A stretch of 64,000 nt of DNA from Rariglobus sp. (GTDB taxonomy: Bacteria > Verrucomicrobiota > Verrucomicrobiia > Opitutales > Opitutaceae), in the NCBI GenBank assembly GCA_029266495.1, contig JAQSWS010000013.1, positions 1 to 64,000 of the forward strand, in the 5' to 3' direction. Shown here piece by piece: positions 3,991-17,975 of the stretch. The notes under the pieces are model-generated. The model was not told the origin of the DNA. It made no database searches and worked only from the letters and a program-made list of their open reading frames with translations. The number at the start of each line of letters is the position of its first letter. Position 1 is the stretch's first letter. A program made the translations under genes and the position numbers.

Positions 3991-4422
3991 ATGAATCTTC
4001 CCCTTACCGGCGGCTGCGTGTGCGGTGCGGTTCGCTACCAGTGCGACGCGCGTCCGATTGCCATGTTGAAATGCCATTGCCGCGACTGTCAGCGAGTCTC
4101 CGGCGGACCCCATGTCTGCGCGGTCCTGCTCCCTTCGTCCGCGTTCCGCTTTACCCAAGGCATGCCGAAATACTACTGCACTTCGAGCGAGGGAGGCGGC
4201 TTGCACCGGCGCGGCTTTTGCAGCGAATGCGGCTCACGGCTCACCGGCGGCGAAGATCCCGATCAGCCGCGCGATTTCATCGGTGTAACCGCCGGCAGCC
4301 TGGACGAAGCCGGCTGGTTCGCGCCGGAGATGGAACTCTGGACCTGCGATGCTCTGTCGTGGGACCCGCCCCGGGCGGACGTGGCGGCCTTCGATAAAAA
4401 TCCGCCCGACCCGCAGGAATAA
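3991..4422 (+). CDS. GFA-family (CENP-V/GFA) zinc protein
   Basis: A 143-residue protein with the zinc-ligand pattern of the glutathione-dependent formaldehyde-activating enzyme (GFA) family: C9-x-C11, C28-x-C30-x2-C33 and C77-x2-C80 within FCSECGSRL. The family is defined by the fold and zinc sites. Most members have no proven formaldehyde activity, so a specific reaction cannot be assigned. Length is normal for a single-domain member. It is divergent from the large propeller protein across a 287-bp gap and is followed by the ECF41-type promoter of the AhpD-like gene. Confidence 0.85.
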   Translation: MNLPLTGGCVCGAVRYQCDARPIAMLKCHCRDCQRVSGGPHVCAVLLPSSAFRFTQGMPKYYCTSSEGGGLHRRGFCSECGSRLTGGEDPDQPRDFIGVTAGSLDEAGWFAPEMELWTCDALSWDPPRADVAAFDKNPPDPQE

Positions 4423-4560
4423 AAACCGGGCCCAAAAAGGCGTCAGAGGCCTCGAGCCAACAGGTTTAGGAGCCAACAGGGTCCGGCCGCTAATTGTTGA
4501 TTTTCTCTCCCGACACACGTCATCGGATAGCCAGGAGCAACCTGTCGGTCTTCGGGCGGC

Positions 4561-4587
4561 TGTCACAAAACGAAACCGTGTTTCGTC
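4561..4587 (+). promoter_or_regulatory. ECF41-type promoter of the AhpD-like gene
   Basis: TGTCACA (4561-4567) is followed after exactly 16 bp by CGTC (4584-4587). The gene's ATG lies 10 bp further on. This matches the -35/-10 pattern I recall for ECF41 sigma factors. The same two elements with the same spacing stand before the SDR-ECF41 operon at 15493. The short distance to the ATG implies a leaderless or nearly leaderless mRNA. Confidence 0.75.
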
Positions 4588-4597
4588 TGATTCTGTG

Positions 4598-5086
4598 ATG
4601 AACACTCGCACCACCACCGCCTCCGCACCCGCCACGGTCCTCAAGCCTCGCATGGACCACTGGTCAGTCGCCCCCGCGCTCATGCAGGGGCTGCTCGACC
4701 TGCAAAAAGTCGCTGATTCCGCCGGCATCGAGCGCAGCCTTCACTTCCTGATCACCCTTCGCGTTTCCCAGATCAATGGCTGCGCCTTCTGCATGAACAT
4801 GCATTCCGCCGAGGCGAAGGCCCACGGCGAATCCGATCAACGCCTGTTCCTCCTCTCCGCCTGGCACGAGACCAACCTCTTCACTCCTCGTGAACGCGCC
4901 GCCCTCAACTGGGCCGAAGTGCTCACGCGCCTTCCCGGCGGACACGTCTCCGATGCCGATTTCGCCGCCATGCGCGCCGAGTTCACCGAATTCGAAATCG
5001 CCGCCGTCACCCTCGCCATCGCCACCATCAACGCCTGGAACCGCTTCGGCGTCGGCATGCGCCCGTCCATCGACCCCGTTGGTTGA
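4598..5086 (+). CDS. AhpD-like / carboxymuconolactone decarboxylase family protein
   Basis: A 162-residue protein starting MNTRTTTASA; the ATG at 4598 is chosen because it sits 10 bp after the promoter element. It contains the redox motif C62-x2-C65-x3-H69 (GCAFCMNMH) of AhpD-like alkylhydroperoxidases in the carboxymuconolactone decarboxylase (CMD) superfamily. Such proteins use the Cys pair and the nearby His for peroxide or disulfide chemistry; the exact substrate is unknown. The upstream promoter matches that of the ECF41 sigma operon in this window. CMD-family proteins are a classic ECF41 partner, so this gene is very probably a sigma target at a separate locus. Confidence 0.9.
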   Translation: MNTRTTTASAPATVLKPRMDHWSVAPALMQGLLDLQKVADSAGIERSLHFLITLRVSQINGCAFCMNMHSAEAKAHGESDQRLFLLSAWHETNLFTPRERAALNWAEVLTRLPGGHVSDADFAAMRAEFTEFEIAAVTLAIATINAWNRFGVGMRPSIDPVG

Positions 5087-5461
5087 TTCCTCTCTCAACC
5101 CACGCGTGTCAGCGACACGCCCAAGAGCATCCCTCGGTCGCCGGTCTTCCCTCCACGGAGCGCTTGGAGGCGACTCCCGGGCGGAAGTTAAAATTTCATA
5201 GCTGCAATCGCGGTTTTGCAGCCAAATCGCCATTACTTCTCGTTTGGATTGTGCACGGTTGAGGTCGTTATCCCCCACCCGCCTTCACCGCCTGCGCCCG
5301 CGTAATCAGTCGCCCCGCCGCAGCGCGTCCGCCCACCCCGACACCCCGAAAGCTCACTGCTCTTCAAGCAGTCAAATCCGACCGGCTCCCGCCTGTCCCC
5401 AGCCTCCGGCTTGCCCTTTTTCCCCGGTATCCTCCGGGGAACCGTCACAAATAATCCCCCC
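5087..5461. other. Intergenic region without a supported gene
   Basis: 375 bp between the AhpD-like gene and the GH5 gene. It holds a perfect small hairpin, CGTGTC-AGC-GACACG (5105-5119), just after the AhpD stop codon but without a T-run. A second inverted repeat is GCTGCAA (5201-5207) with TTGCAGC (5216-5222). A TTG-initiated extension of the GH5 frame enters the last 50 bp but is unlikely to be used. No clear promoter was recognised. Confidence 0.5.
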
Positions 5462-7774
5462 ATGATTCGATCAAATACCCCCTCGATGATGCGCTGGGAA
5501 TCGCTGCGGCGATCCCTGGCTCGCAAGGTCCGTTGGTCCGCACTCACAGTCACCCTGGCCGCCGCCACCCAGCTCCAGGCCGACCCGCCCGAACTCAAAA
5601 CCCTGGGCAATCAAATCGTGGTCAAGGCCACCAACGAACGCGTTCGTCTGGCCGGCGTGAACCTCAGCGGACTCGAAGACAACATCGACCGCAATTTCAT
5701 GAACTCGCTCGATGTGGCCACCGGAACGTGGAAGGCCAATGTCTTCCGCCTGGCGGTCAAAAACTCGTATTGGTTCCACTCCACCATCGGCCCCGGCTAC
5801 AAGGCGAAGGTGGATGCGCTGATCGAACGCGCCCGCCAGTTGAACGTCTACATCATCCTCGATCTGCACAACTACGAGAAGGCCCGGACTGCGGACGCCA
5901 CGTTCTGGACCGACGCCGCCAATCGCTACAAAAACAATCCCGTCGTCTTGTTCGGCCTGCTCAACGAGCCGCATGGCACCGGCTGGGAAATCTGGCGCAA
6001 CGGCGACTCCGAGGGCCCGGGCATGCAGGGCTTGCTCAATGCCGTGCGCGCGACCGGCGCTAACAACATCGTGTTGGCCGGCGGCGGCGAATGGGGCTAC
6101 AACTTGAGCGGGATTATGCCCGGCTTCAACGGCCTGACCAATGGCTACGCACTCACTGAAACGACCTCGGGCAACGGCATCGTCTACGACAGCCATGTGT
6201 ATCCGTGGAAGAGCAACATCCAGCTCAACGTGGGCAACGCGTCGTTCCTTTATCCGGTGTTGCTCGGCGAGTTCGCCCACCCCGGCGGCACGACCTTCTC
6301 CGGTCAGTCCTCCTTCGAGTCCGACGTGACCTGGGTGCCGCGCATGATGGACTGGGTGAACACCAACAACCTCCACTGGACCGGTTGGAATTTCAGCAAC
6401 GGCTCCCATCCCGCCATGCTGGTGGACTGGAGTTATCAACCCACTTCCTACTGGGGCGAGATTGCCCGCGCGCACATGCAGTCCTACGCCGATCCCGCCG
6501 CCCAGCGCGTCGTCGGCGGCACACCCATCGGCATCGGCGACCTCTTCAATGTTTCACAAGGCCCGGCCGCGCCCTTCAACAACAGCAACACTTACTACTA
6601 CCATGTTCTCAACGGCTGGAGCGGTCTCGACCTGGGCGCGCCCAAGCGCATCACGCAGATCAAATACATGCCGCGAAAGGACAACGGCCACCTCATGATC
6701 GGCGGCGTTTTCCAAGGATCCAACTCGGCGGACTTCAGCAGCGGCGTGGTCACCCTGCACACGGTTTCCACCGAACCCGTCGACACCTTCGTGGGCAACA
6801 CCGGCACCTACACCACCATGCCCGTCACCGACACCGGCACCTACCGGTATGTTCGCTACCAAGGCCCCGCCGGCGGCTACAGCAACATCGCCTCGATGCT
6901 TTTCTTCACCGGCGACGACAGCGGTCCCGGCGTGAACGACAACGTCATCATCATCGATAACTCCGGCACGGGCAGCATCGTCAGCACCGGTTGGGCCGAC
7001 GCCAACGATTCCGGCTTTCACGGCTCCCGCTGGGTGAGCGACGGCAACAGCGGCAAGGGCACCAAGTCCATCCGCTACACGCCCACCCTCATGCAGGCCG
7101 GCCAATATGAGGTGTTCACCATCTGGAGCGCCCATCCCACCAGCCGCGATCTGGCCGTGCCCTACACGATCACCCACGCAGGCGGCTCCACCACGGTGCC
7201 CAAGAACCAGCGTGAAAACGGCGGCACCTGGCAGTCGCTCGGAACGTATACGTTCAACGCCGGCACCACCGGCAACGTCCTCGTGAGCAACACCGGCACC
7301 ACCAGCTGGGTCACGGCCGACGCCGTGAAGTTCGTCTATCAAACGCCCGTCGAAATTATCATGGACAAAGCGTCCGCGGACACGCCCGGCATCACCAGTT
7401 ACGGCGGCTGGGCCGCCACCACCACCCCGACGCCCTACGGCACCCACTCCTACCACGATGGCGATTCCGCCAAGGGAACCAAGTGGGTGCGCTTCACTCC
7501 GCCCATTCCGTCCTCGGGCCAATACGCCGTCTATGTCTGGTGGACCTCCCACCTCAACCGCGCCACCAACACGCCGTTCACCGTGAGCCATGCCGGCGGC
7601 ACCGCACCCGCCATCCGCCTGAGCCAGGAAACCGGCGGCGGACAGTGGCAGCTTTTGGGCACCTACACGTTCAACGCCGGCTCCAGCACCACCAATGGCA
7701 GCGTGCTGATCACCAATGACGCCAACGAATACGTCGTCGTGGACGCCGTGCGTTTCCTGAAGGTCGGAAACTAG
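5462..7774 (+). CDS. Secreted GH5 glycosidase with discoidin-like and two golvesin-like modules
   Basis: 770 residues from the ATG at 5462. An N-terminal basic region and hydrophobic stretch (SALTVTLAAATQ, ending near QLQADPP) form a signal peptide. Residues about 38-335 are a glycoside hydrolase family 5 barrel: LLNEPHG contains the acid/base E169, and VLLGEFAHP contains the nucleophile E270. Residues about 343-490 resemble an F5/8 (discoidin) beta-sandwich. Two related modules follow (about 493-628 and 629-770), each with a TGW or GGW start, a KGTK motif and a closing DAV(K/R)F motif, as in golvesin C-terminal-like domains. It probably cleaves a beta-linked plant or algal glycan outside the cell; the exact substrate cannot be read. 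Monocistronic with a strong terminator. Confidence 0.9.
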   Translation: MIRSNTPSMMRWESLRRSLARKVRWSALTVTLAAATQLQADPPELKTLGNQIVVKATNERVRLAGVNLSGLEDNIDRNFMNSLDVATGTWKANVFRLAVKNSYWFHSTIGPGYKAKVDALIERARQLNVYIILDLHNYEKARTADATFWTDAANRYKNNPVVLFGLLNEPHGTGWEIWRNGDSEGPGMQGLLNAVRATGANNIVLAGGGEWGYNLSGIMPGFNGLTNGYALTETTSGNGIVYDSHVYPWKSNIQLNVGNASFLYPVLLGEFAHPGGTTFSGQSSFESDVTWVPRMMDWVNTNNLHWTGWNFSNGSHPAMLVDWSYQPTSYWGEIARAHMQSYADPAAQRVVGGTPIGIGDLFNVSQGPAAPFNNSNTYYYHVLNGWSGLDLGAPKRITQIKYMPRKDNGHLMIGGVFQGSNSADFSSGVVTLHTVSTEPVDTFVGNTGTYTTMPVTDTGTYRYVRYQGPAGGYSNIASMLFFTGDDSGPGVNDNVIIIDNSGTGSIVSTGWADANDSGFHGSRWVSDGNSGKGTKSIRYTPTLMQAGQYEVFTIWSAHPTSRDLAVPYTITHAGGSTTVPKNQRENGGTWQSLGTYTFNAGTTGNVLVSNTGTTSWVTADAVKFVYQTPVEIIMDKASADTPGITSYGGWAATTTPTPYGTHSYHDGDSAKGTKWVRFTPPIPSSGQYAVYVWWTSHLNRATNTPFTVSHAGGTAPAIRLSQETGGGQWQLLGTYTFNAGSSTTNGSVLITNDANEYVVVDAVRFLKVGN

Positions 7775-7802
7775 AGCCTTCCAAATACAGTCGGGTTGTC
7801 GT

Positions 7803-7879
7803 GTAGCCACGCCCGTGCCGGGCGTGTTCCGCGCTACATCCCCGATTTCGAACCGCGCGGCCGACACGGCCGCGGCTAC
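7803..7879. repeat. Pair of inverted GTAGCC hairpin repeats
   Basis: On the plus strand GTAGC is followed by the hairpin CACGCCCG-TGC-CGGGCGTG (7803-7826). On the minus strand GTAGC is followed by CGCGGCCG-TGT-CGGCCGCG (7879-7856). The two units share the same layout and loop (TGY) while the stems differ by compensating changes, as expected of a mobile or structure-selected intergenic repeat. They lie between the GH5 stop codon and its terminator. Confidence 0.6.
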
Positions 7880-7884
7880 ATCGC

Positions 7885-7915
7885 AAGACGGGCTCTCCGG
7901 AGCCCGTCTTTTTTT
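7885..7915 (+). terminator. Strong intrinsic terminator of the GH5 gene
   Basis: AAGACGGGCTC (7885-7895), loop TCCG, GAGCCCGTCTT (7900-7910): a perfect 11-bp stem that runs into seven T residues (7909-7915). It lies about 110 bp after the GH5 stop codon and directly behind the hairpin repeats. Confidence 0.9.
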
Positions 7916-8013
7916 GTGCACCGACCGCCACCTTCCACCACCTCCTCAATCAGCGGGCCACCTCTGTTTCCTGATTTCCTGAGTTCCCCATTCATGCTTT
8001 TGTTTTCCAACCC

Positions 8014-8463
8014 ATGAGCACCCAATTCCCCGTCAGCGATCACGTCAAAACCCGCGGCATCGTCTACTTCGCCCGCATGGTGGACAAAATCCGTCTCCAC
8101 GCCGCCGGCCAGCTCCCCGCTGCCTACATCGGCCACCTCGGCTTCGCCGACAATACGAGCTTCGACGCCCGCTGCTGCCGCTTCTGGGGACTCGATTACG
8201 AACAGGTGAAGGCCCGCACGCTCAAGGGCGGCACCGCCGAGGAAATCTTCGACGATCTCTTTGCCGGGCGTCCGCCGCTCAACGTCGAGCAGGTCTTCGT
8301 ATGGAATCTTTTCCTTCTCAAACGCGGCTGGCGCGATAGCGGCACGCCCGGTGTGGTCGCCGAAAAAGCCTCCGCCGGCATCGGCCATCGCGCCGACGTC
8401 CAGACCTACGTCGACATCCACGACTTCGAGGAAGGCCGCGAACCGCAGGCGGTCCTCGGCTGA
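8014..8463 (+). CDS. DUF5069 domain-containing protein
   Basis: 149 residues from ATG 8014. The pattern GIVYFARMVDKIRLHAAGQLP, then GFDARCCRFWGLDYE-like and GRPP segments, matches the DUF5069 family, which is common in Verrucomicrobiota and Planctomycetota and has no known function. The protein is soluble, with no signal peptide or metal motif. A second DUF5069 member lies at 19231-19677 on the opposite strand; the two are only distantly similar and represent different subgroups. Apparently monocistronic. Confidence 0.75.
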   Translation: MSTQFPVSDHVKTRGIVYFARMVDKIRLHAAGQLPAAYIGHLGFADNTSFDARCCRFWGLDYEQVKARTLKGGTAEEIFDDLFAGRPPLNVEQVFVWNLFLLKRGWRDSGTPGVVAEKASAGIGHRADVQTYVDIHDFEEGREPQAVLG

Positions 8464-8777
8464 CGGATCTCCCAATCCTCGCATGCAGGGCCGCCGCTTG
8501 CGGCGCGCGCCTCCCCTGCGTTTACCGCGAAGTTCGGTCTTCATTAAAGCCCCCAATGTGTGACATGAATTAATTCCTGTTTTGCGTCCCCGTTGAGTTC
8601 GGCGGACTTCCCGCCGCTCACGCAGCAGGCTATAATTCGGATGTCGTCCTGAGCGTGAACTCATGCAGTTCCGCCGCAGTCGTTAAGATTCGACGTGCAG
8701 CATCCCGCAGCTTCAATTCCCCCCGCACGACCCCGCCACCCCGTCCCATTTCGGCGCCTTTGTATTGGCCACAAAAC
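8464..8777. other. Intergenic region with a possible -10 box
   Basis: 314 bp without a supported gene. A GC hairpin CGCCGC-TT-GCGGCG lies shortly after the DUF5069 stop codon but lacks a T-run. A perfect TATAAT occurs at 8631-8636, about 140 bp before the VOC gene, but no convincing -35 element stands 16-18 bp upstream. Base composition changes here from GC-rich to more AT-rich. Confidence 0.4.
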
Positions 8778-9143
8778 ATGAAAATCACCTCAGCCTCGCC
8801 CATTCTTCAGGTGAATGACCTGACTAAATCGATTTCCTTTTATTGTGACGTCCTCCGCTTCACGAAAGAATTCGCCTACGGAGAACCCCCTTTTTATGGC
8901 GGCGTTAAACGAGATGGTCTGATTCTTCATCTATGTTCGTCCGGCGAAAACAAAACCAGAGCAGGCATGGGATCGGTCTACATCTTCTGCGACGAGGTGG
9001 ACTCCTATCACGCAGAGATCACCGCCATGGGCGCCAAAGTAACTTCACCGCTCAACACCTACCCTTACGGGATGAGAGATTTCCAAATCAAAGACCTTGA
9101 TGGAAATCTGATCAGCTTCGGAACCCCGGTGGAAGAGCGCTAA
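8778..9143 (+). CDS. VOC-family (glyoxalase/bleomycin-resistance-like) protein
   Basis: 121 residues starting MKITSASPIL at ATG 8778; the frame is open upstream but the homologous part begins here. It shows the vicinal oxygen chelate layout: ILQVNDLTKSISFYCDVLRF in the first beta-alpha unit, a central GSVYIFCDEVD strand and the closing MRDFQIKDLDGNLISFG motif with the conserved D-x-x-G-N and a metal-ligand-like environment. VOC proteins range from glyoxalases to drug-binding proteins, so no substrate is proposed. It is the first gene of the more AT-rich cluster. Confidence 0.85.
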   Translation: MKITSASPILQVNDLTKSISFYCDVLRFTKEFAYGEPPFYGGVKRDGLILHLCSSGENKTRAGMGSVYIFCDEVDSYHAEITAMGAKVTSPLNTYPYGMRDFQIKDLDGNLISFGTPVEER

Positions 9144-9197
9144 CCATTTTGTCCAGCGGACAGCAAAGCTGCAGCGCTGGTGGTCGACGTCAGCAAA

Positions 9198-9617
9198 ATG
9201 AAATTCGCCATCCTATCGCTCCTGCTCCTCACCGCGGCGATTGCCGCCCCTGCGGAGCTGCAGTTTTTGGAAGCACTTCTTCCGAACTCAAAGCATGTTC
9301 GCACCTCTGTGCTGAAGAGCACCCCCTCCGGTATAATTTTTTCGGAGTATGTGGGCTCTGACGACATACCTGTTATTAAGGAGTGCCTGCAGAAATCCTT
9401 GGGAACAGAAATCCGGGAAGTGCCTGTCATAAAGGACGAGATGACGTTTCTCTCTGCCTGGGCAATCGGGATGGGACTCGATCAGAAAAAGCACACGCTT
9501 GTCCGGCTACAAGGAGCAGACTTAAGCATCGATATACTCATATACCACTTGAACGACGATGCCACGGGCATTTCCAGTAGACATGTCGCGCTGCAAATCA
9601 TCCGAAAAGGTGCTTAA
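9198..9617 (+). CDS. Small exported protein of unknown function
   Basis: 139 residues from ATG 9198; a GTG 18 bp upstream is less likely because it would put polar residues before the signal peptide. The start MKFAILSLLLLTAAIAAPA is a typical signal peptide. The mature part is mixed alpha/beta with no Cys pair or lipobox and no recognised domain. It precedes the Nudix gene by 88 bp and could belong to the same transcription unit. Codon use is less GC-biased than in the flanking genes. Confidence 0.6.
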   Translation: MKFAILSLLLLTAAIAAPAELQFLEALLPNSKHVRTSVLKSTPSGIIFSEYVGSDDIPVIKECLQKSLGTEIREVPVIKDEMTFLSAWAIGMGLDQKKHTLVRLQGADLSIDILIYHLNDDATGISSRHVALQIIRKGA

Positions 9618-9705
9618 CAAGCTGCTGACCACAGCGGCCACCTCCGCCCTCAGGCGTTGGACGGAGATTCCAGTCCGGTATGTCTGACCTGAAACGCTTA
9701 AAAAA

Positions 9706-10182
9706 ATGAAAATCAGGCACAGAGCATACGCATATATCACGCACGGATCGCGCCTGTTATTATTCACACAGCCCGATCCAAAGGCAGGAATTCAGGTGCC
9801 GGCTGGAACCGTGAAAGAATGTGAAAACCCAGCGGACGCCGTGTTGCGCGAGTCGCTCGAGGAGACCGGACTCACTGCGCTTCGACTTGTTAAGTTTCTA
9901 GATCAGGACGTTCGGGACATGCGTGACTGCGGCGTGGAGGAACTGCAACATCGCTGGTTTTATCACATCGCTTGTGACGAGACCCCGCCGGAAAAGTGGA
10001 GACATGGCGAATTCGATGACGCCGGCAATCTGGTGCATCCCTTCGATTTTTTCTGGGCCCCATTATCCGAAAAAATCCCGGCCTTGGTCGCCAACTACGA
10101 CGATAAGTTACCACTCCTGCAGGAATCCCTAAAAAGCCTGACAAGTGCTACGGATCCCATGTCGCAACATCGACAACACTGA
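9706..10182 (+). CDS. NUDIX hydrolase
   Basis: 158 residues. The Nudix box is complete: G34-x5-E40-x7-R48-E49-x2-E52-E53-x-G55-L56, which binds the metal ions and diphosphate of NDP-X substrates. The N-terminal strand IRHRAYAYITHGSRLLLFTQP is also typical. Substrate is not predictable from the motif. Its TGA overlaps the ATG of the next gene by one base (TGATG), so it probably heads a four-gene operon with an SLBB-like protein, an exported protein and a lipoprotein, an unusual set of partners for a Nudix enzyme. Confidence 0.9.
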   Translation: MKIRHRAYAYITHGSRLLLFTQPDPKAGIQVPAGTVKECENPADAVLRESLEETGLTALRLVKFLDQDVRDMRDCGVEELQHRWFYHIACDETPPEKWRHGEFDDAGNLVHPFDFFWAPLSEKIPALVANYDDKLPLLQESLKSLTSATDPMSQHRQH

Positions 10183-10526
10183 TGAACTTCAAATTAATCG
10201 TCCTGCTTCTGGTCTTCTCACTATCGCTTTTACACGCGGGAGATACTCCGCTCCTTGCGATCAATGTTCTCGGACAGGTCAAGCAGCCTCAAGCCGTCAG
10301 AGTCGAGGGGCCTACGTCCCTTAATGCGCTTGTTAAGTCCGCCGGCGGCATAGACCGGTTATGGGGAGGAGTGATCATTATCACGAAAAAGGAATCGGAG
10401 ATCCTCACCGTTTCACGACGATATGAGTTCAAGCGAAGAATAAAGGACGAGGAAGCAGACGTGGTGTTCGGATCGATTACAGTCACACCCGGCGAATCAG
10501 TATTTTTCCAAGAAATTTATGACTAG
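10182..10526 (+). CDS. Exported SLBB-like protein
   Basis: 114 residues with a signal peptide (MNFKLIVLLLVFSLSLLHAG). The mature part INVLGQVKQPQAVRVEG followed by LNALVKSAGGI fits a soluble-ligand-binding beta-grasp (SLBB) repeat, as found in polysaccharide-export outer-membrane proteins. Here a single SLBB unit stands alone, without the Poly_export domain. Such domains bind polysaccharide or small ligands. It is translationally coupled to the Nudix gene and followed after 16 bp by another exported protein. Confidence 0.65.
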   Translation: MNFKLIVLLLVFSLSLLHAGDTPLLAINVLGQVKQPQAVRVEGPTSLNALVKSAGGIDRLWGGVIIITKKESEILTVSRRYEFKRRIKDEEADVVFGSITVTPGESVFFQEIYD

Positions 10527-10542
10527 GATAGTCGCCCCAAAA

Positions 10543-10914
10543 ATGAAAAAATTCCTCATCCTTGCCTTTCTCCTGTCCGGCATCGTAGCCCGCGCGTCCG
10601 ACACAAAAATACTCCTGGGCATGGTTCCCGAACGAGGCTCCAATGATATCATCCTGGTGGTCTCGGCGACCTTCACAAACCAGTCGGAATTCAAGACGCT
10701 CGGCATAAAACAGAACGATCGCTTTCAAGCGATTGAAACGTCCGGAACCAGAAGTTGGAGCCCGGGCAAAGGCCAGTTTATTGCCGCCTATATCATCCGG
10801 CCCAAAATGAAGGGTGCGAAAATCAGCCATGCAGATTTCACAGGGCTTCCGGATGACGTGATATTTACCCGCGATCTCATTTCGGAGAAATACAGGGAAG
10901 AGCCCCAAACCTGA
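10543..10914 (+). CDS. Small exported protein of unknown function
   Basis: 123 residues from ATG 10543; an in-frame ATG at 10519 would overlap the previous gene by 8 bp. The start MKKFLILAFLLSGIVARAS is a signal peptide. The mature protein is basic with no Cys and no recognised domain. It sits between the SLBB-like gene and a lipoprotein gene with very short gaps, so it should share their transcript and probably their cell-envelope role. Confidence 0.6.
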   Translation: MKKFLILAFLLSGIVARASDTKILLGMVPERGSNDIILVVSATFTNQSEFKTLGIKQNDRFQAIETSGTRSWSPGKGQFIAAYIIRPKMKGAKISHADFTGLPDDVIFTRDLISEKYREEPQT

Positions 10915-10918
10915 ACTC

Positions 10919-11506
10919 ATGAACCGCACTCTTCTTATCGGCACTTTGCTTTGGTCTCTGGCCATCGTCATGAGCAGCTGCCGAAAGGCCGGGGTCCCGT
11001 CAGCGCCGCCCGTCGCACCTCCGCAAACCTATCACGAGAGCCAGACACCACGGATTCTCTCGGAATGGCGTAGTTCGAGCGATGGAGCGGTCTCGGTTTG
11101 CGCTTATGTGGACAAAACGACCTTTGGCGCAACGGAATCGATTCCCCTGCGATGCGCCCTCAGAAATAATACCGGCAAGCCGCTGACCATTCTACGTCCG
11201 TTCGGAGACAGGTGGTATGCGCAGACCTCAGGCATCAGCATTGTGGGTCCTGGCGGGGTCGTTCCGTATCGCGGCCCCATTGCAGGCTACGTTCTCGGAA
11301 CGGGCGCATTTATTGAACTGGCACCGCACACCGTAACGGAGGGCGTGATTGAGTTGAAACCGGACGTTTTCCCCTCCTTGGGAGAAAAAGGCCTCTACAC
11401 GATCATCTACACGTTCCTGTCGGGTGGATACCCGCACAAAACCACTCCGCAAAATTACTGGGAAGGCATCATCACCGCCAACCCCGTATCGGTTTTATTT
11501 AAATGA
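10919..11506 (+). CDS. Predicted lipoprotein
   Basis: 195 residues. MNRTLLIGTLLWSLAIVMSSC is a lipoprotein signal peptide with Cys21 as the lipid anchor site. A Pro-rich linker follows, then a beta-rich domain (about 55-190) with segments such as IPLRCALRNNTGKPLTIL and GVIELKPDVFPSLGEKGLYTI, which reads like an Ig-type fold of the kind seen in bacterial macroglobulin-related proteins; that is only a resemblance. It begins 4 bp after the preceding gene and ends the Nudix operon. Confidence 0.65.
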   Translation: MNRTLLIGTLLWSLAIVMSSCRKAGVPSAPPVAPPQTYHESQTPRILSEWRSSSDGAVSVCAYVDKTTFGATESIPLRCALRNNTGKPLTILRPFGDRWYAQTSGISIVGPGGVVPYRGPIAGYVLGTGAFIELAPHTVTEGVIELKPDVFPSLGEKGLYTIIYTFLSGGYPHKTTPQNYWEGIITANPVSVLFK

Positions 11507-11608
11507 ACCGGTGAGAGGGAAGCCATGCTCGGCCAAGGCGGTCGAGGCGAAGGCGGACCAGCGGCACGTGCCGCCGAAGGACAACACCCGCCCGGCGTGA
11601 TGTCCGGG

Positions 11609-11797
11609 TCACCCGCAGGCCCCCGCATCCTGCTCCAGTTCGGCAGTGTGCAATTCGTCAATCCGCGCCGCAATAATCGTGGCGAGATCGGCGGCCGCGT
11701 GGCTGCCCTGGCGGTCGAGCACAAAGGCGAGGTCGCGTAGTTCGGTTTGCAACCGGATCCAGCGCGCGTCCATCGGAAGGGAGACAGGAAGGTTCAT
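11609..11797 (-). CDS. Small coupled protein downstream of the MBL-fold gene
   Basis: 62 residues starting MNLPVSLPMDARWIRLQTEL. The ATG (11797-11795) overlaps the TGA of the metallo-hydrolase gene in an ATGA arrangement, which argues for translational coupling and makes this short frame credible. The product is a soluble, strongly helical peptide without Cys motif or membrane segment except for one Cys near the end. No family is recognised. It could be an accessory subunit of the hydrolase, but that is inference from position only. Confidence 0.55.
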   Translation of the reverse strand: MNLPVSLPMDARWIRLQTELRDLAFVLDRQGSHAAADLATIIAARIDELHTAELEQDAGACG

Positions 11798-13029
11798 TGG
11801 GCGAAGGCAGCGGGTTTCCGACCGTCGAAGGTGGACACGATCGGCGTCTCGTCCGCGCGGCTCCAAGGGAGCTCCGGCCACCAGCGCGTCGTGGCAGGCG
11901 GCGCGGCCGGCTCGACGCTTTCGCCGGGACGGGGAGTGGCCACGGTTACACCCGCGCCCGCGGCGGCGGCGAGCACGCGCTCGACCGGCTCGGTCCACGT
12001 GTGCGGAGCGAGGTTGAAGAGGCCCCAGTGGATCGGAATCAGCACCCCTCCTTTGACGATGCGGTGCGCGGCGACCGCCTGCTCGGGTCCGATGTGCCAG
12101 TCGGGCCAGCTGGCGTTGTATTCGCCCGCCTCGATCAGCGTCGCGTCAAACGGACCGAGCTTTTCCGCAATGTCGGCAAACGCCGCCTGCATGCCGGTGT
12201 CGCCGGAAAAATACACCCGGTGCCCGGGGCCGGTGAGCGCATAGCCGGACCAGAGCGTAAGGTCTTTGTCGAACACGACGCGACCGGAAGCATGACGCGC
12301 GGGCGTGCTCGTAATCCGCAGCGAACCGATGCGCGTCGTCTCCCACCAATCGAGTTCGACGATGCGCGCCTTTGGCACGCCCCAGTATTCGAGATGCGCG
12401 CCGACCCCGAGCGGGACAATGAAGGTCGCCGGATTGTTTTTGAGGGCGATGATCGTGCGGTGATCGAGGTGGTCGTAGTGGTCGTGCGATATCAGGATCG
12501 CATCGATCTCCGGCAACTCCGCCAGCGCAAGGGGCGGCTCATACCAACGCTCCGCGCCGAGCCAATCGACCGGCGAGGCTCGTCCGCCCCAAACGGGATC
12601 GGTGAGCACGCGAAAACCATCGATCTCGATCAAGGTCGTCGAGTGACCGAGCCAGGTGATGCGCAGGCCGGTTTCGGGCGCGACGCGCAGCGCGGAGGGA
12701 TCGACCTTCGCTGTCGCGAGAAGCCCGGGCGGACGGGCGTGAGGAGACGGTCTCATCGCGGCGCCGATCGCTTTCCAGAAATCGCTCCGGATGGGCTGGG
12801 GGTTATGGAAGCGTCCGTCACGCCATTGCGGCGAACGCTCCATGCGTTTGCGGCGCCCGGCGTCGGGCCGGCGGCCCAGCCCGGTCCAGGTGTCCGCAAG
12901 GCCGGCCGCAAAAGCCAGCGGCAGTGCGGCACCGGCTCCGAGAGTCCGGCGGCACAACCAGCGCCGGCGGTGGAGCGAGGGTTTGGCCTGAATCAGCGGT
13001 GGAGATGAAAGCGCGGCGATCGTGGACAT
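11794..13029 (-). CDS. MBL-fold metallo-hydrolase (NAPE-PLD/UlaG-like)
   Basis: 411 residues from ATG 13029, chosen because it precedes the Tat-like or membrane-anchor region RRRWLCRRTLGAGAALPLAFAAG (about 21-43). The metal motif H182-x-H184-x-D186-H187 lies in ILISHDHYDHLDH. The N-terminal sequence ITWLGHSTTLIEIDG and the later SGDTGM and HWGLF motifs fit the NAPE-phospholipase D-like branch of metallo-beta-lactamase-fold hydrolases, which cleave phosphodiester or lactone bonds. The substrate is unknown. Probably exported or membrane-anchored. Divergent from a TetR gene and followed by a small coupled gene. Confidence 0.85.
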   Translation of the reverse strand: MSTIAALSSPPLIQAKPSLHRRRWLCRRTLGAGAALPLAFAAGLADTWTGLGRRPDAGRRKRMERSPQWRDGRFHNPQPIRSDFWKAIGAAMRPSPHARPPGLLATAKVDPSALRVAPETGLRITWLGHSTTLIEIDGFRVLTDPVWGGRASPVDWLGAERWYEPPLALAELPEIDAILISHDHYDHLDHRTIIALKNNPATFIVPLGVGAHLEYWGVPKARIVELDWWETTRIGSLRITSTPARHASGRVVFDKDLTLWSGYALTGPGHRVYFSGDTGMQAAFADIAEKLGPFDATLIEAGEYNASWPDWHIGPEQAVAAHRIVKGGVLIPIHWGLFNLAPHTWTEPVERVLAAAAGAGVTVATPRPGESVEPAAPPATTRWWPELPWSRADETPIVSTFDGRKPAAFAQ

Positions 13030-13149
13030 GGTCGTGAAGGATAAATGCGGGTGAATGAAAGAAGCGCTGCCGGCGGGCTTGCCGGCCTCGGGCACCGGCC
13101 CGTAACTTGATTTTAATGAATCAAAGGACCGACCGTAAAATGGACTCAA

Positions 13150-13192
13150 TTGACAATATGGGCATAATTTGTCTATTTTAACAAAATGTCAA
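13150..13192. promoter_or_regulatory. Candidate TetR operator/promoter between the MBL and TetR genes
   Basis: An imperfect palindrome GACAA(T)..(A)TTGTC spans 13152-13173, and TGTCAA follows at 13187-13192. TTGACA at 13150-13155 could be a -35 element of the TetR gene, whose ATG at 13186 would then be almost leaderless; no good -10 is seen. The location between a divergent TetR gene and its neighbour is the classic place for an autoregulatory operator. Confidence 0.45.
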
Positions 13193-13797
13193 CTGCCAAA
13201 AAATCCGCCGTGTCCGAAGGGGTGCCCGCCGAGGACTCCCGTCGCGCGCAGTTGCTGGAAAGCGCCCTCGGTGTTTTCGCCCGTTTCGGTTACCGGAAAA
13301 CGTCGATGGACGAGGTGGCCCGCGCGGCGAATGTTTCGCGCCAGGGCCTTTATCTTCATTTCGCCAACAAGGAGGATCTCTTCCGCGCGACGGTGCGCCA
13401 CACGATCGGATCTTCGCTCGCCGACGCCAAACGCGCCCTGGCGGTCGAAGGCGCCGTGCTTGCTGAGCGCCTGCGCGGGGCGTTTCACGCGTGGGTGGGA
13501 CGGTATGTCGGGCGTTTCGGCGCCGATGCCTCCGACCTGATGCAGGCGGCCGAGGGGTTGCTTGGCACGCTGGTGTTCGATCAGGAAAAACTGTTTGTCG
13601 ATGCCGTGGCCGCCACCCTGCGTGAGGCCGGGCTCGCGGCAGCCTACAAGCCTGCAGGCGTCACTCCCCGCCAGCTCGCGGAAAACCTCTGCGCCACCGC
13701 GCGCGGACTGAAGCACAGCTGCGACACGCAGGAGGAATTCGAAGAGGCCTTTGCCGTCGCGATCCGCATCACCTGCGCGCCGCTCGTGCAGGACTAG
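13186..13797 (+). CDS. TetR/AcrR family transcriptional regulator
   Basis: 203 residues. The N-terminal domain (about 18-65) has the TetR helix-turn-helix: LLESALGVFARFGYRKTSMD, then EVARAANVSRQGLYLHFANK and EDLFRA. The C-terminal half is the helical ligand-binding and dimer domain. It is transcribed divergently from the MBL-fold hydrolase gene across 156 bp that contain TGACA-type inverted repeats, so it most likely represses that gene and itself. The inducer is unknown. Confidence 0.9.
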   Translation: MSTAKKSAVSEGVPAEDSRRAQLLESALGVFARFGYRKTSMDEVARAANVSRQGLYLHFANKEDLFRATVRHTIGSSLADAKRALAVEGAVLAERLRGAFHAWVGRYVGRFGADASDLMQAAEGLLGTLVFDQEKLFVDAVAATLREAGLAAAYKPAGVTPRQLAENLCATARGLKHSCDTQEEFEEAFAVAIRITCAPLVQD

Positions 13798-13901
13798 GGT
13801 GTGTGAGACCGTGTTATGATCCCACCTTGATCTGTTTTTGGCAGAATCTAACGCGGCTCAAGGACCCGGCGTGGCCCCCACCCACCGAGACCGTGTGAGT
13901 T

Positions 13902-13950
13902 AAAAAAAAGCAGTGCCGACGAGAGCGGGCGGGGCTCGATCGTCGGCACT
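13902..13950 (-). terminator. Orphan minus-strand intrinsic terminator
   Basis: Read on the minus strand, AGTGCCGACGA/TCGTCGGCACT (13950-13940 and 13922-13912) forms a perfect 11-bp stem, extended by pairing of inner GAGC/GCTC bases. A run of eight T follows after a GC pair (plus-strand A8 at 13902-13909). No minus-strand coding sequence lies upstream for several kilobases, so it does not end a known gene. Confidence 0.75.
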
Positions 13951-14043
13951 TAGACGCCGAAGCGTCAGCGATCACGCTGCGGAGGGCGGAATTCAGCAGC
14001 GGACCGGCAGCCCCCACTCCACCCACCGTGCACCCGCTGTCAA
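13902..14043 (-). ncRNA. Candidate small structured RNA
   Basis: The 414-bp gap 13798-14211 has no supported gene. On the minus strand it contains a stem GACGC-TTCG-GCGTC (13966-13953) with the very stable C(UUCG)G tetraloop, a GCTGC/GCAGC stem just before it, and the strong terminator at 13950-13902. TTGACA at 14043-14038 could be a -35 box, but no good -10 follows, so the 5' end is uncertain. No match to tmRNA, RNase P RNA, SRP RNA or a tRNA was recognised. The transcript would be about 100-140 nt. Confidence 0.35.
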
Positions 14044-14211
14044 CACCTCGGCTCACAGGTCAGCCCGTCCCCTGGTTGGAAAAAGCCCGCCGCCACCCGG
14101 ATCGGGCGTCCCCAAAACACTCGACGCGCCCGCTCCTGCGGTCTCAAGTCTGCCGAACCGGTTGGAAATCAACCATCGTCATCACCCCACCCTTTACGAC
14201 GCTCCAACCCT

Positions 14212-14448
14212 ATGGCAGGCATCGCCGTTCTCTCCGCTCTGTTTACTTTGGTCGTTACCATTCTGTGGCTGGTGATTGGCTGGCGCGCCATGCGAGCGCA
14301 CGAACGTGTGGCGGACAACCTCACGACCTTGTCTCATCACGTCAGGAAAATCGCTGATTCCAAAGAAGCCGCCCCCGCCCGCGCCTCCTCCCTTGGTCAG
14401 ACGATCGACCCATCGAAGTTGCCCCGCATCCGGGACGATCAGCCCTAG
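14212..14448 (+). CDS. Small single-pass membrane protein
   Basis: 78 residues: one hydrophobic segment (about 3-22, VLSALFTLVVTILWLVIGW) followed by a positively charged, soluble tail with RAMRAHERVADNL. The layout resembles short membrane-anchored proteins of unknown role. It precedes the peptidase gene by 47 bp and may be co-transcribed. No clear ribosome-binding site is visible. Confidence 0.55.
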   Translation: MAGIAVLSALFTLVVTILWLVIGWRAMRAHERVADNLTTLSHHVRKIADSKEAAPARASSLGQTIDPSKLPRIRDDQP

Positions 14449-14495
14449 GCGGCGGAAGCGGGATCGAATCCATCGTTTTCGGAACTCATCATTGG

Positions 14496-15395
14496 ATGCT
14501 CCCATTGCGTAACATCGATTCCCGTTTTCCCATCCCCGAGTGGGAGGAGGTTGCGGCTACAGCTTCCAATTTGGCCGATGCCGATGCGCATGCATTCTGG
14601 ACCGAACGCGGACGTGAATGGGTTCATCAACTTCGCCAGGCGCTCGGTTCAGGCTACATCGGCTACGAATCCACGCATTTCTGGCTGATTTCGAGTCAGC
14701 CCGAATCCATCTCCCGACGCTTCATTCCCTGGTTGGAAACTACACGCACCAAGGTGCTCAAGGCCCTGGAGCTCGATGTTTCAGCCCATCTTTATGGCAA
14801 GTGCCCGGTGTTGGTGACGCATGACCTCGAAACTTATTACGACTACGTGTCCGGCTATTTGGAGGAAGGCGAGCACGCGCTGAGCGGCGGCATGTATATC
14901 AATCAGGGCTACGGACATTTTGTTTTCACCTATCTGGACATGGGGCAGGCGGAGTTGGTCCTGGCGCATGAACTCACCCATTCGCTGGTTGCCCATCTGC
15001 CCCTGCCCGCATGGGTCAACGAGGGAATCGCCCAACTCTGCGAGCAAGCCGCAACCGGTCGCGACACCGCCGACTACGAACAGATCCGGGAAACCTTGGA
15101 AACGTATTGGACTGCCGAAACCATTCAGGACCTTTGGACCGGACAGGGTTTTAACCGTCAGGACGAAGGGCAGTTCCAGAGTTACCATCTCGCCAAGGTG
15201 CTCACCGGCAAACTCGCGGGTGAGGCTTCCCGCTTCCAAGCCTTCTTGCATGAAGCACACTTTGCCGACGCCGGCAGTAAGGCGCTGATGAAACACTTCG
15301 GACTGTCCTTGGAAGAACTTGTCACCGACTACCTTGGAGAGGGTAATTGGAGCGCACTACCCACAACGCCTGACGTGCCGCCGAAGGAAAAATAA
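14496..15395 (+). CDS. Gluzincin-type metallopeptidase-like protein
   Basis: 299 residues. The zinc motif H158-E-L-T-H162 is followed 14 residues later by WVNEG with E176 as the likely third ligand, the layout of gluzincins (peptidase MA-like superfamily, related to DUF1570 proteins). No signal peptide is evident, so it may act in the cytoplasm. The C-terminal helices after residue 190 (YEQIRETLETYW, FQAFLHEAHF) match the helical tail of this group. Substrate unknown. Confidence 0.75.
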   Translation: MLPLRNIDSRFPIPEWEEVAATASNLADADAHAFWTERGREWVHQLRQALGSGYIGYESTHFWLISSQPESISRRFIPWLETTRTKVLKALELDVSAHLYGKCPVLVTHDLETYYDYVSGYLEEGEHALSGGMYINQGYGHFVFTYLDMGQAELVLAHELTHSLVAHLPLPAWVNEGIAQLCEQAATGRDTADYEQIRETLETYWTAETIQDLWTGQGFNRQDEGQFQSYHLAKVLTGKLAGEASRFQAFLHEAHFADAGSKALMKHFGLSLEELVTDYLGEGNWSALPTTPDVPPKEK

Positions 15396-15492
15396 CCCCC
15401 GCTTTCCCGGAGCGGGCAGGAGCATGTTCGGAGTTCGACTACTCGCTACCCGCTACTCACCACTCGCTACTTTTCCCCTCTTCCCGCCCCTC

Positions 15493-15519
15493 TGTCACAA
15501 AAGAGAACGCTGGCCCGTC
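15493..15519 (+). promoter_or_regulatory. ECF41-type promoter of the SDR-sigma operon
   Basis: TGTCACA (15493-15499), 16 bp, CGTC (15516-15519), then the ATG of the SDR gene after 11 bp. It is the same arrangement as at 4561-4587. It indicates autoregulation of the operon by its own sigma factor and a leaderless or near-leaderless transcript. Confidence 0.75.
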
Positions 15520-15530
15520 TGGATTGGTGT

Positions 15531-16352
15531 ATGAACACCCACTCCTCCTCCCCAACGCCTTCGGGCAAGAGCCAGAAAATCGTCGTCATCGGTGGCACCG
15601 GTCTCATCGGCAAGCCCATCGTTGAAAAACTCCGCCGCCTCGGCCACGAGGTCGTCGCCGCCTCGCCTTCCAAGGGCATCAACGCCATCACCGGCGAAGG
15701 TCTCGCCGCAGCCCTCGCGGGCGCGCAGGTCGTGATCGACGTCGCCAACTCCCCCTCGTTCGAGGACCAGGCCGTGCTCGAGTTTTTCGAGCGCTCCAGC
15801 CGCAATCTCCTCGCCGCCGAAGCCGCCGCCGGCGTCCGCCATCACGTGGCGCTCTCGGTCGTCGGCACCGACCGTCTGCCCGACAGCGGCTACTTCCTCG
15901 CCAAGCTCGCGCAGGAGTCGCTCATCAAAGCCTCGCCCGTGCCTTACACGATCGTGCGCGCCACGCAGTTCTTCGAATTCGCCCAAGGCATCGCCTACGT
16001 CGCCACCGAAGGCACGACCGTGCGCGTTCCGCCCGTCCGCATGCAGCCCGTGGCCGCGGCCGACGTCTCCGCCGCCCTCGCCGACATCGCGCTCGCCGCT
16101 CCCCTCAACGGCATCGTCGAGCTCGCCGGCCCCGAGCCGATCACCCAGGACGCCTTGGTGCGCCGCCTCCTTGAAGCCACCGGCGACACCCGCACCGTCG
16201 TCGCCGATCCTGCCGCCGGTTATTTCGGCGCGGTGGTGGACGACCACAGCCTCGTGCCGACGCCCGGCGTCGCCCCGCTGCTCGGTGCGACGCGTTATAC
16301 CGACTGGCTCGCCAAACACGCGGCGGCCCGGGCAGTCTCTTCCCCGGCATGA
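15531..16352 (+). CDS. NmrA-like atypical SDR (NAD(P)-binding oxidoreductase/epimerase)
   Basis: 273 residues. The Rossmann motif IVVIGGTGLIGKPIVEKL (G21-x2-G24-x2-G27) binds NAD(P). Sequence features such as ALSVVGTDRLPDSGY, then LAKLAQESLIKASPVPYTIVRATQFFEF, are typical of atypical SDRs of the NmrA/SDR_a5 type, which act as reductases or redox sensors. The gene overlaps the ECF41 sigma gene by 4 bp (ATGA). An oxidoreductase or epimerase next to ECF41 is the standard arrangement for this sigma group, and the gene's own promoter matches the expected target sequence. Confidence 0.9.
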   Translation: MNTHSSSPTPSGKSQKIVVIGGTGLIGKPIVEKLRRLGHEVVAASPSKGINAITGEGLAAALAGAQVVIDVANSPSFEDQAVLEFFERSSRNLLAAEAAAGVRHHVALSVVGTDRLPDSGYFLAKLAQESLIKASPVPYTIVRATQFFEFAQGIAYVATEGTTVRVPPVRMQPVAAADVSAALADIALAAPLNGIVELAGPEPITQDALVRRLLEATGDTRTVVADPAAGYFGAVVDDHSLVPTPGVAPLLGATRYTDWLAKHAAARAVSSPA

Positions 16353-17227
16353 TCGATGTCTTCAACACCCATCGTCCGCTGCTCTTCGGCATCGCCTACC
16401 GCATGTTGGGCCAAGTGGGCGAAGCCGAGGACGTCGTGCAGGATGTCTGGCTGCGCTGGCAAAAACAGGACGCCGCCGCCATCCAGTCGGCGAAGGCCTG
16501 GCTGGTGTCGGCAACGACGCGGCGGTGCATCGACCAGCTGCGCTCGGCACGGCGCCAGCGCGAAGACTACTATGGCGTGTGGTTGCCGGAGCCCTTGACC
16601 CCCGCCACGGAGACCGATCCCGCGCAGACGGCGGAACTCGCCGATTCGTTGAGCATGGCCTTCATGCTGATGCTCGAGGCGCTCGGGCCGGCGGAGCGCG
16701 CGGTGTTTCTCCTGCGCGAGGTGTTTGGTTATGATTATGCCGAAACGGCGGCGATCGTGGGCAAAAGCGAGGCCAACTGCCGCCAGATCGTGCGACGTGC
16801 GAAGGAGCATTTGCAGGCGAACGCCCGGCCCCCCTCGCCGTCGACGGATCAGGCGCGGCGCCTCGTCGAGGAATTTCTCGCCGCCACCGGATCCGGCGAT
16901 GTGCAGCACGTGCTCTCGTTGCTGACGGAGGAGAGCACGGTTTACAGCGATGGCGGCGGAAAGGTGAAGGCCGCGGGCCGCGCGATCCGCGGAGCCGACC
17001 ACGTGAGCCGGTTCCTGCTGGGCATCTGGCCTCGCTTCATGGCGGGCGTGAAGCCTAGCCTGATCAACATCAACGGCGCCCCGGGCTTTGTCGTAAGCTC
17101 TGGCAGCCAAGTCCATTACGCCCTGTCATTCCAAGTGGAGGGCGCCCGGATCCAGGCCGTCTTCATCGTCTGCAACCCGGACAAACTGCGGCATCTCGCG
17201 ACCGCGCAGAGTCATTTGCCGGCTTGA
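16349..17227 (+). CDS. ECF41-group sigma factor with fused SnoaL-like regulatory domain
   Basis: 292 residues. Region 2 occupies about 5-72 (YRMLGQVGEAEDVVQDVWLRW) and region 4 about 100-158 (YAETAAIVGKSEANCRQIVRRAK). The C-terminal 125 residues form a SnoaL/NTF2-like domain. Three signatures of group ECF41 are present: WLPEPL at 78-83 in the linker, DGGGK at 201-205 and NPDKL at 276-280. In this group the fused domain replaces a separate anti-sigma factor. Coupled by ATGA to the SDR gene; the operon promoter and the one before the AhpD-like gene carry the matching target sequence. The inducing signal is unknown. Confidence 0.95.
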   Translation: MIDVFNTHRPLLFGIAYRMLGQVGEAEDVVQDVWLRWQKQDAAAIQSAKAWLVSATTRRCIDQLRSARRQREDYYGVWLPEPLTPATETDPAQTAELADSLSMAFMLMLEALGPAERAVFLLREVFGYDYAETAAIVGKSEANCRQIVRRAKEHLQANARPPSPSTDQARRLVEEFLAATGSGDVQHVLSLLTEESTVYSDGGGKVKAAGRAIRGADHVSRFLLGIWPRFMAGVKPSLININGAPGFVVSSGSQVHYALSFQVEGARIQAVFIVCNPDKLRHLATAQSHLPA

Positions 17228-17343: not shown

Positions 17344-17571
17344 ATGATTAAGACGATCTCGAAGGTGGGTAACTCACAGGGCGTGATTTTTGATAGTGCG
17401 CTCATGGAGTTGGCGCGCCTCAAGGTCGGAGATGCGGTAGACGTGGTGGTGCATGACAGCGGCGCGATCACGCTCACGCCTTTGCGTCCGGTCATCACGC
17501 CGGAACGGGCCAAGGAGGTCGCTGAAGACGTGATCCGGGACTACAACGAAGTCTTTCGTCGTCTCTCGTGA
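17344..17571 (+). CDS. AbrB/MazE-type antitoxin
   Basis: 75 residues with a swapped-hairpin AbrB fold: IKTISKVGNSQGVIFDSALMELARLKVGDAVDV is the DNA-binding beta-hairpin element, followed by a short C-terminal helix-rich tail (TPERAKEVAEDVIRDYNEVFRRLS) that would wrap the toxin. Its TGA overlaps the GTG of the Doc toxin gene (GTGA), so the two proteins are made together. It should neutralise Doc and repress the operon through the inverted repeat just upstream. Confidence 0.9.
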   Translation: MIKTISKVGNSQGVIFDSALMELARLKVGDAVDVVVHDSGAITLTPLRPVITPERAKEVAEDVIRDYNEVFRRLS

Positions 17572-17975
17572 GCACCCCGATCGCCCATCTGACGGTGGCC
17601 GCGACCGAGGCCATTCATGCCGCGGCCTTGCGTGCGCATGGAGGCGGTGCGGGGTTACGAGATCGCGGCATGCTGGAGTCCGCCATCGCGGCACCCCAAG
17701 CCACGGCGTTTGGCGAGCCGGTCATGACCGATTTGGTGGAGATTGCCGCCGCTTATCTGTTTTATCTCTGTCGCAATCACGCGTTCGTCGATGGCAACAA
17801 ACGCGTGGCGTTGGGCGCGTGCCTGGTGTTTTTACGCTGCAACAATGTCATCGACCGCCCGCCGCGCAACGAAGCCGAGATCGCCGCGTGGGAGGCCTTG
17901 GTCCTGGACGTCGCCGCCTCAAGACTCGACCGCGAGCACACGACCGCGCGGCTGCGGGCGTTGTTAAGCGGATGA
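17568..17975 (+). CDS. doc: Doc (death-on-curing) family toxin
   Basis: 135 residues from GTG 17568, which overlaps the antitoxin stop. The Fic/Doc active-site motif H71-AFVDG-N77-K78-R79 has the Doc form H-x-F-x-(D/N)-(A/G)-N-K-R, so by family knowledge it is expected to phosphorylate elongation factor Tu and stop translation. The remaining helices (GGAGLRDRGMLESAIAAPQA and the C-terminal helix) are also typical. Partner: the AbrB-type antitoxin immediately upstream. A complete, apparently intact chromosomal TA module. Confidence 0.9.
   Translation: MSTPIAHLTVAATEAIHAAALRAHGGGAGLRDRGMLESAIAAPQATAFGEPVMTDLVEIAAAYLFYLCRNHAFVDGNKRVALGACLVFLRCNNVIDRPPRNEAEIAAWEALVLDVAASRLDREHTTARLRALLSG

Follow-up and report, generated by a model that had tools for sequence, protein, structure and literature searches.

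Two exact copies of the promoter motif of the ECF41 sigma factors, a widespread group of extracytoplasmic function (ECF) sigma factors, lie 11 kb apart on the + strand of the DNA studied here, the first 64,000 nucleotides of contig JAQSWS010000013.1 of Rariglobus sp. (assembly GCA_029266495.1; hereafter the window). The first copy (4561-4587; -35 element TGTCACA at 4561-4567, 16-bp spacer, -10 element CGTC at 4584-4587), which follows the published consensus (PMC3426412), stands before a carboxymuconolactone decarboxylase (CMD)/AhpD-like gene (4598-5086, + strand). The second, assigned by motif match (15493-15519; -35 at 15493-15499, -10 at 15516-15519), stands before an operon made of a short-chain dehydrogenase/reductase (SDR)-type gene (15531-16352, + strand) and an ECF41 sigma gene (16349-17227, + strand). 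A sequence-only reading had placed both motifs at these positions, with equal N16 spacing, and had noted that the CMD-type gene lies about 11 kb from the sigma gene; both observations hold, the two loci sharing contig and strand. The same reading called the promoters identical, which is true of the -35, the -10 and the first AAA of the spacer, the remaining spacer being different.

The CMD protein (162 aa) carries C62xxC65 and H69 and matches PF02627 (E 1.2e-18) and, over its cut-off, TIGR00778; its residues 1-16 form a tail that does not align to solved homologues, whose alignments begin at residue 16-19. The SDR-type protein (273 aa; NAD(P)-binding, NmrA-like; PF13460, E 3.3e-12, and PF05368, E 4.3e-08) also starts with a tail, of about 15 residues and rich in Ser and Pro, and ATG 15531 is the sole ATG, GTG or TTG in frame between the motif and the codons of the Rossmann GGTGLIG. 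The start of the sigma gene overlaps the SDR stop by 4 nt (ATGA, 16349-16352), and a gene of the CMD, oxidoreductase or epimerase (COE) type thus adjoins the sigma gene. The sigma factor (292 aa) reaches 363.5 bits against NCBIfam TIGR02957 (SigJ-type; curated cut-off 323.25) and 326.6 against NF007214 (cut-off 271). Its fused C-terminal SnoaL-like domain is recognized through TIGR02957 and the SigJ profile alignment: a profile built from it and seven relatives aligns with Mycobacterium tuberculosis SigJ over positions 4-280, C-terminal domain included (E 3e-67), and the match of the window sigma to SigJ (5xe7; PMC8999054) is thus a full-length one. The Pfam SnoaL model gave no match in the sigma at E 0.001. 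The motifs DGGGK and NPDKL mark the ECF41 group, and both are found by alignment (201-205 and 276-280), as the sequence-only reading had stated. No other ECF41 was found in the genome, for which each of the 17 candidates was scored, the runner-up reaching 49.7 bits. Among the Pfam-scanned neighbours of the sigma gene, several of which have no Pfam match at all, no anti-sigma family was detected.

The position of the two motifs matters more than their number. The window holds two exact matches against 0.01 expected from shuffles (0/100 shuffles contained two), and the whole genome (4,892,833 bases, 172 contigs, 99.75% complete) has no exact match besides these two sites, the reversed control giving 0. 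However, simple arithmetic with even base composition predicts about two copies of an 11-base pattern in a genome of this size, so that the exact-copy count is not evidence, and the position is. When one mismatch is allowed, 39 places are found in this genome versus 23 in the control; 36 of 37 one-mismatch places fall across frames that stay open for 150 codons or more, which need not be genes, and we found no further regulon member among the 37 one-mismatch sites (spacer 16) genome-wide, since at none of them does an ATG lie 7-14 nt downstream with at least 60 open codons behind it. A motif frequent elsewhere in this genome would have spoken against the two-locus reading, and this is not what was observed: there is no other exact copy, and no one-mismatch copy before a plausible start. 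In a sample of 150 genomes of the family (Opitutaceae), the exact motif is present in 71, with reversed control matches in about 45. Since the control is also frequent and most copies do not precede starts, we rejected the motif in the family as stand-alone evidence. One class that recurs among these family copies, TGTCACAAGCTCGGCCTCAGCTACGTC with its close variants, is internal to a frame that reaches about 530 codons at most.

TGTCACA-n16-CGTC was defined as the ECF41 promoter by Wecke et al. 2012 (PMC3426412), and the action of ECF41 factors through this motif on CMD, oxidoreductase and epimerase genes, which the sequence-only reading had stated, agrees with the account given in that paper. 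According to the same source, ECF41 proteins generally control a single gene or operon, an adjacent CMD, oxidoreductase or epimerase. The circuits of Bacillus licheniformis (ydfG) and Rhodobacter sphaeroides (RSP_0606) resemble the window in their ECF41 with a C-terminal extension, their promoter and their type of target, and no anti-sigma is described for them; they have a single adjacent target and, in these two mapped species, a leader of 22/23 nt with a ribosome-binding site, whereas the window has a second, distal target and near-leaderless starts (PMC3426412). Sinorhizobium meliloti RpoE9 is likewise an ECF41 with a CMD target and the same promoter type, but its CMD gene lies upstream in the same operon and is its one target (PMC6180224). 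A role in motility and lateral flagella, beyond one adjacent enzyme, has been reported for the ECF41 RpoE10 of Azospirillum brasilense (mentioned in PMC8999054). The available portions of PMC8999054, PMC8103513, PMC9205884 and PMC3160421 contain nothing on distal ECF41 targets of the window's kind, and a search of literature titles and abstracts, few of them from subscription journals, returned none on distal ECF41 targets or leaderless ECF41 transcripts. Judged by sequence, the published generalization of a single adjacent target does not describe the window, where a second exact promoter stands at a distal CMD gene.

How did this CMD gene come to stand alone? In the 150 family genomes (ECF41 threshold, E up to 1e-40; CMD threshold, E up to 1e-15) we found ECF41 in 28, at 30 loci. 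Directly upstream of these loci, tblastn with the window proteins detected a CMD homologue at 16, an SDR homologue at three (window, G087 and G004) and neither at 11, five of which have a more distant AhpD-like CxxC partner. Homologues of the window CMD occur at 26 places in 23 genomes, and for each of its 15 best non-self matches an ECF41 gene is present no more than 400 bp away. The window CMD is thus an exception among its close relatives, and its promoter looks inherited rather than accidental. The remaining 10 places comprise one beside an ECF41 gene (G117), eight away from any detected ECF41 gene, and one in G126, at best a candidate for another orphan, which carries the motif without any ECF41 found but whose contig ends about 570 bases past the CMD and whose CMD frame has a stop. 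Within the genus, 13 genomes were searched, with ECF41 in five and a CMD match in six.

One genome of the same genus, G041, preserves what looks like the earlier arrangement. Its CMD is 91% identical to that of the window over 159 residues, has the promoter TGTCACAAAACGAAACACTATTTCGTC, and is directly followed by a CMD-type sigma gene (L098 9517-10368; G041:C3:111017-111868) that is 54% identical to the window sigma and interrupted by one in-frame TAG. This stop may be real, marking a decaying sigma gene, or may be a sequencing error; no second ECF41 was found in G041. DNA similarity between the two genomes begins at 4551, ten bases before the -35, and ends at 5073, near the end of the CMD gene. 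Over the CMD gene dN is 0.048 and dS 0.40 (NG86), a dN/dS of about 0.12 that indicates purifying selection, and in the promoter none of the 11 bases of the -35 and -10 has changed as against three of the 16 spacer bases; this retention is suggestive, not strong, support. Furthermore, positions 20.0-37.3 kb of the window are syntenic with G041:C3:161-179 kb (79-94% identity), on the same contig and strand as the G041 CMD operon, which makes a common descent of the CMD locus plausible.

The sigma tree bears on the identity of the presumed lost partner. In a maximum-likelihood tree of 47 ECF41 proteins (the row of L047, from G087, shortened to 239 aa), the window sigma falls together with two SDR-associated sigmas, those of G004 and G087 (99/98). 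This group sits within a seven-member clade (99/97), of which two members, L151 and L153, have another gene, or none that can be placed, after the promoter. The G041 sigma pairs with the CMD-associated sigma of G005 (100/96), elsewhere in the tree. Because the tree places it in the SDR-type clade, the window sigma is a different ECF41, and not the former partner of the CMD displaced from it.

The two promoters also lie close to their genes. The sequence-only reading had measured 10-11 nt from CGTC to ATG; indeed 10 nt separate them at the CMD gene (4588-4597, + strand; ATG 4598) and 11 nt at the SDR gene (15520-15530, + strand; ATG 15531), and both coding sequences begin, as it had also observed, with a common ATGAACAC. 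On the assumption that transcription starts 8-10 nt after CGTC, the predicted starts fall at about 4595-4597 and 15527-15529, giving leaders of 1-3 nt and 2-4 nt, respectively. Two details of the published work fit this assumption. The leaders given as 22/23 nt in the text of PMC3426412 appear as 31/32 in its Table 5, a difference that would place the start 9 nt past CGTC, provided that the table measures from the -10 element, and the last base of the S. meliloti promoter sequence is 9 nt past CGTC, apparently the mapped start itself. No Shine-Dalgarno-like 4-mer occurs in either window stretch between -10 and ATG; one is present in 4/34 related stretches.

This layout recurs in the family, where 25/30 ECF41 loci have the motif with at most one change in its 11 bases. 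The start lies 9-13 nt after the motif in 19 of these 25 (17 ATG; in L057 and L063 it is the GTG of the sigma gene itself), five have longer leaders, and one is undecided (L071, motif far from the sigma gene); start assignment was corrected by eye for L047, L048 and L058 (near) and L065 (far). Nine further named loci of Verrucomicrobiota comprise five near, one far and three unresolved. Among 67 other named loci, 49 have the motif: 11 near, 36 other and two without a frame (for this count L155, L157, L158 and L161 were dropped as repeats of family genomes, and L154 was counted under 'other'). Near-leaderless starts are thus not unique to Verrucomicrobiota, an idea we rejected because the 11 of 49, ten in Betaproteobacteria and one in Lysobacter, start 6-10 nt after the motif. 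At L188, L199, L207, L213, L215, L216, L223 and L229 (Massilia, Ramlibacter, Variovorax, Lysobacter), it is the ECF41 gene itself that starts 8-10 nt past the motif.

In Verrucomicrobiota the distance from CGTC to the CxxC codons is 169-193 nt in 13 near-leaderless CMDs of the window type and 173-175 nt in three leadered ones (G058, G117, L140), and the start codon seems to have moved into sequence that is leader elsewhere. A constant promoter-to-domain distance does not hold as a general rule, since 18 CMD loci of other phyla span 177-258 nt. In 34 near-leaderless genes the G content is 13.6% in codons 2-11 versus 28.2% in codons 31-80, and exactly 10 nt separate CGTC from ATG in 17 of the 34; in ten of them the second codon is biased by construction, as their search pattern required an A after the ATG.

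Is the distal target peculiar to the window? We read 106 distinct exact-motif sites in family and genus, at 18 of which an ATG 7-14 nt downstream starts a frame of 70 codons or more. At 15 of these 18 an ECF41-type partner gene starts there, two (L062, L065) are ECF41 loci whose partner starts further on, and one (L014) lies inside an unrelated frame. The AhpD-like frames of G012 (L062/L297) and G117 (L065) start at 45 and 32 nt and were treated as leadered, not near-leaderless. At class level (Verrucomicrobiia), TGTCACA-N16-CGTC-N7-12-ATGA gave 20 sites in 18/384 genomes versus two sites in the reversed control, and ECF41 was found in 17 of the 18 pattern-bearing genomes versus 32/384 overall, an overall figure that may miss copies because at most six candidates per genome were scored. 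The remaining pattern-bearing genome, G291 (L292), has no ECF41 found and no frame at the site; it was set aside, together with L014, as a pattern match without a partner gene.

Three genomes offer parallel cases. G144 has a lone AhpD-like gene at the motif, one of the 15 partner-gene sites just counted, and the one ECF41 reported for this genome lies on a different contig (15 of 29 candidates were scored). The other two cases emerged from the class-level pattern. In G256 an SDR-cupin pair lies on C5 and two reported ECF41 genes lie on C2, each behind a CMD; judged from gene order this mirrors the window, the SDR being apparently orphaned while the CMD retains a sigma. In G503, C5 carries a lone cupin, and the reported ECF41 lies on C19, behind an AhpD-like gene. 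No sigma was found near these three distal sites by tblastn with two ECF41 proteins (about 10 kb on each side, E up to 1e-3). An intact counterpart exists, since G487 has the order SDR, cupin, ECF41. We also noticed that a secreted-looking cupin is a recurrent ECF41 partner, as SDR-cupin-ECF41 (G487), SDR-cupin (G256, L309 9919-11186) or alone (G503, L310 9989-9509), and that a near-leaderless ECF41 promoter precedes a protein that by eye resembles an FMN-dependent NADH-azoreductase at position 1501 of L290 and L306 (G311, G283), the L306 frame running to 341 aa.

Promoter elements, family membership, operon layout, orphan state, sigma clade and spacing are all read from the DNA, and on this basis we consider it likely that the window holds an ECF41 circuit with two target loci made by orphaning, in which the CMD, deprived of its own sigma but still with its promoter, now answers in trans to the SDR-type sigma. 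The two-locus regulon proposed by the sequence-only reading is thereby supported at sequence level. We count in its favour that each exact motif immediately precedes a gene whose type partners ECF41 in other genomes. Control by a fused SnoaL-like domain is known for the ECF41 family, and here this domain would control the activity of the sigma, a ligand of the domain being the likely signal. The active sigma would start transcription at its own SDR-sigma operon, a positive feedback in which the SDR-sigma overlap suggests translational coupling, and, as both promoters carry the same -35 and -10, it would also start that of the CMD in trans, 11 kb upstream. The CMD would formerly have been part of a CMD-ECF41 operon of the kind its relatives have, from which the partner sigma gene would then have gone while enzyme and promoter were kept. 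Loss of that gene (not rearrangement), trans-activation, feedback and the exact 5' ends are what we infer in this scheme, the step in trans from the shared promoter elements and from the history just traced. Both mRNAs would begin about 1-4 nt before the ATG, and translation would therefore be near-leaderless, the G-poor N-terminal tails taking the place of the 5' leader found in leadered relatives. As output, the CMD would likely supply an enzyme of the thiol/peroxide type and the SDR a protein of the NAD(P)-dependent reductase type; from their families one may guess that the pair serves redox or detoxification.

The main rival is a relic promoter, left over from a lost CMD-ECF41 operon and no longer used, in which case the CMD would depend on another sigma or on read-through from the GFA gene for its transcription, or would be silent. 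The GFA gene (3991-4422) does run on the same strand as the motif and ends 138 bp before it, the sigma loss may be recent, and in G041 the same promoter persists even though the one ECF41 gene there is interrupted by an in-frame stop. If that TAG is real, the promoter has been kept in a genome where no intact ECF41 was found, which suits a relic equally well, and, silent divergence being moderate, the intact -35 and -10 could reflect slow decay. These two points weigh against the orphaning proposed here, as do the single adjacent targets of the published ECF41s (PMC3426412, PMC6180224) and the eight lower-ranking CMD homologues without ECF41, which mean that free-standing CMDs are not rare. 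So does the failure of tblastn with five CMD-type sigmas to detect in the window any remnant of a lost sigma beside the CMD; apart from the intact sigma it gave weak matches, the best of which (E 0.005, 10041-10148, minus strand) was rejected, as it lies antisense inside a NUDIX gene and contains a stop. However, the -35 and -10 are exact in window and G041 while the spacer has changed and the CMD is under purifying selection, the window genome does have an ECF41 whose own promoter carries the same elements, and exact motifs are kept in the three parallel distal cases. We therefore hold a relic to be unlikely.

A rearrangement, in which one ancestral CMD-SDR-sigma locus was split by insertion or inversion and nothing was lost, would suit two loci 11 kb apart on one contig and strand, but CMD and SDR homologues do not occur together in the fetched flanks of any of the 30 family ECF41 loci, and the SDR clade is the one that holds the window sigma, CMD-linked sigmas falling in other clades; we disfavour a rearrangement as very improbable. 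That one or both motifs are coincidental could be argued from the two exact copies expected in 4.9 Mb, from the 88 of 106 distinct exact family sites that are not 7-14 nt before an ATG opening 70 codons, and from the presence of the exact motif in 71/150 genomes with ECF41 found in only 28. Yet only 0.01 copies are expected in the window, and both motifs stand at a recurrent distance before genes that partner ECF41 in other genomes, which makes coincidence the least credible of these explanations, with hardly any chance of being right.

Around these loci, a GH5 cellulase-type gene with a golvesin C-terminal domain (5462-7774, + strand) lies between the two ECF41 loci. Directly behind the SDR-sigma operon (17344-17975, + strand) comes a Doc-type toxin-antitoxin pair: the antitoxin, MazE-like, matches TIGR02609 and PF04014 with scores below cut-off in both cases, and the Fic/Doc toxin after it passes the cut-off of TIGR01550.

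In conclusion, the sigma family and its promoter were known, and the novelty lies in the distal target and its proposed origin by orphaning, in the parallel cases and in the near-leaderless layout. More tentatively, and with rather less confidence than for the window itself, we suggest that ECF41 circuits in Verrucomicrobiota may not be closed single-operon loops: since members share one promoter code, an orphaned enzyme gene can join the regulon of another ECF41 in the same cell, so that sigma loss would move enzyme genes between circuits, multi-locus regulons would grow, and their targets would share near-leaderless mRNAs with a G-poor N-terminal tail derived from former leader. If the CMD answers to the window sigma, the rule of one sigma and one adjacent target has exceptions. 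The near-leaderless arrangement, if true, would be an example, seen repeatedly, of an ECF regulon that relies on a single mode of translation initiation. Likewise, small self-contained circuits would have a simple route for merging into larger regulons, the loss of a redundant sigma, and genomes at different stages, with an intact operon, an interrupted sigma gene or an orphaned target, make this route testable.

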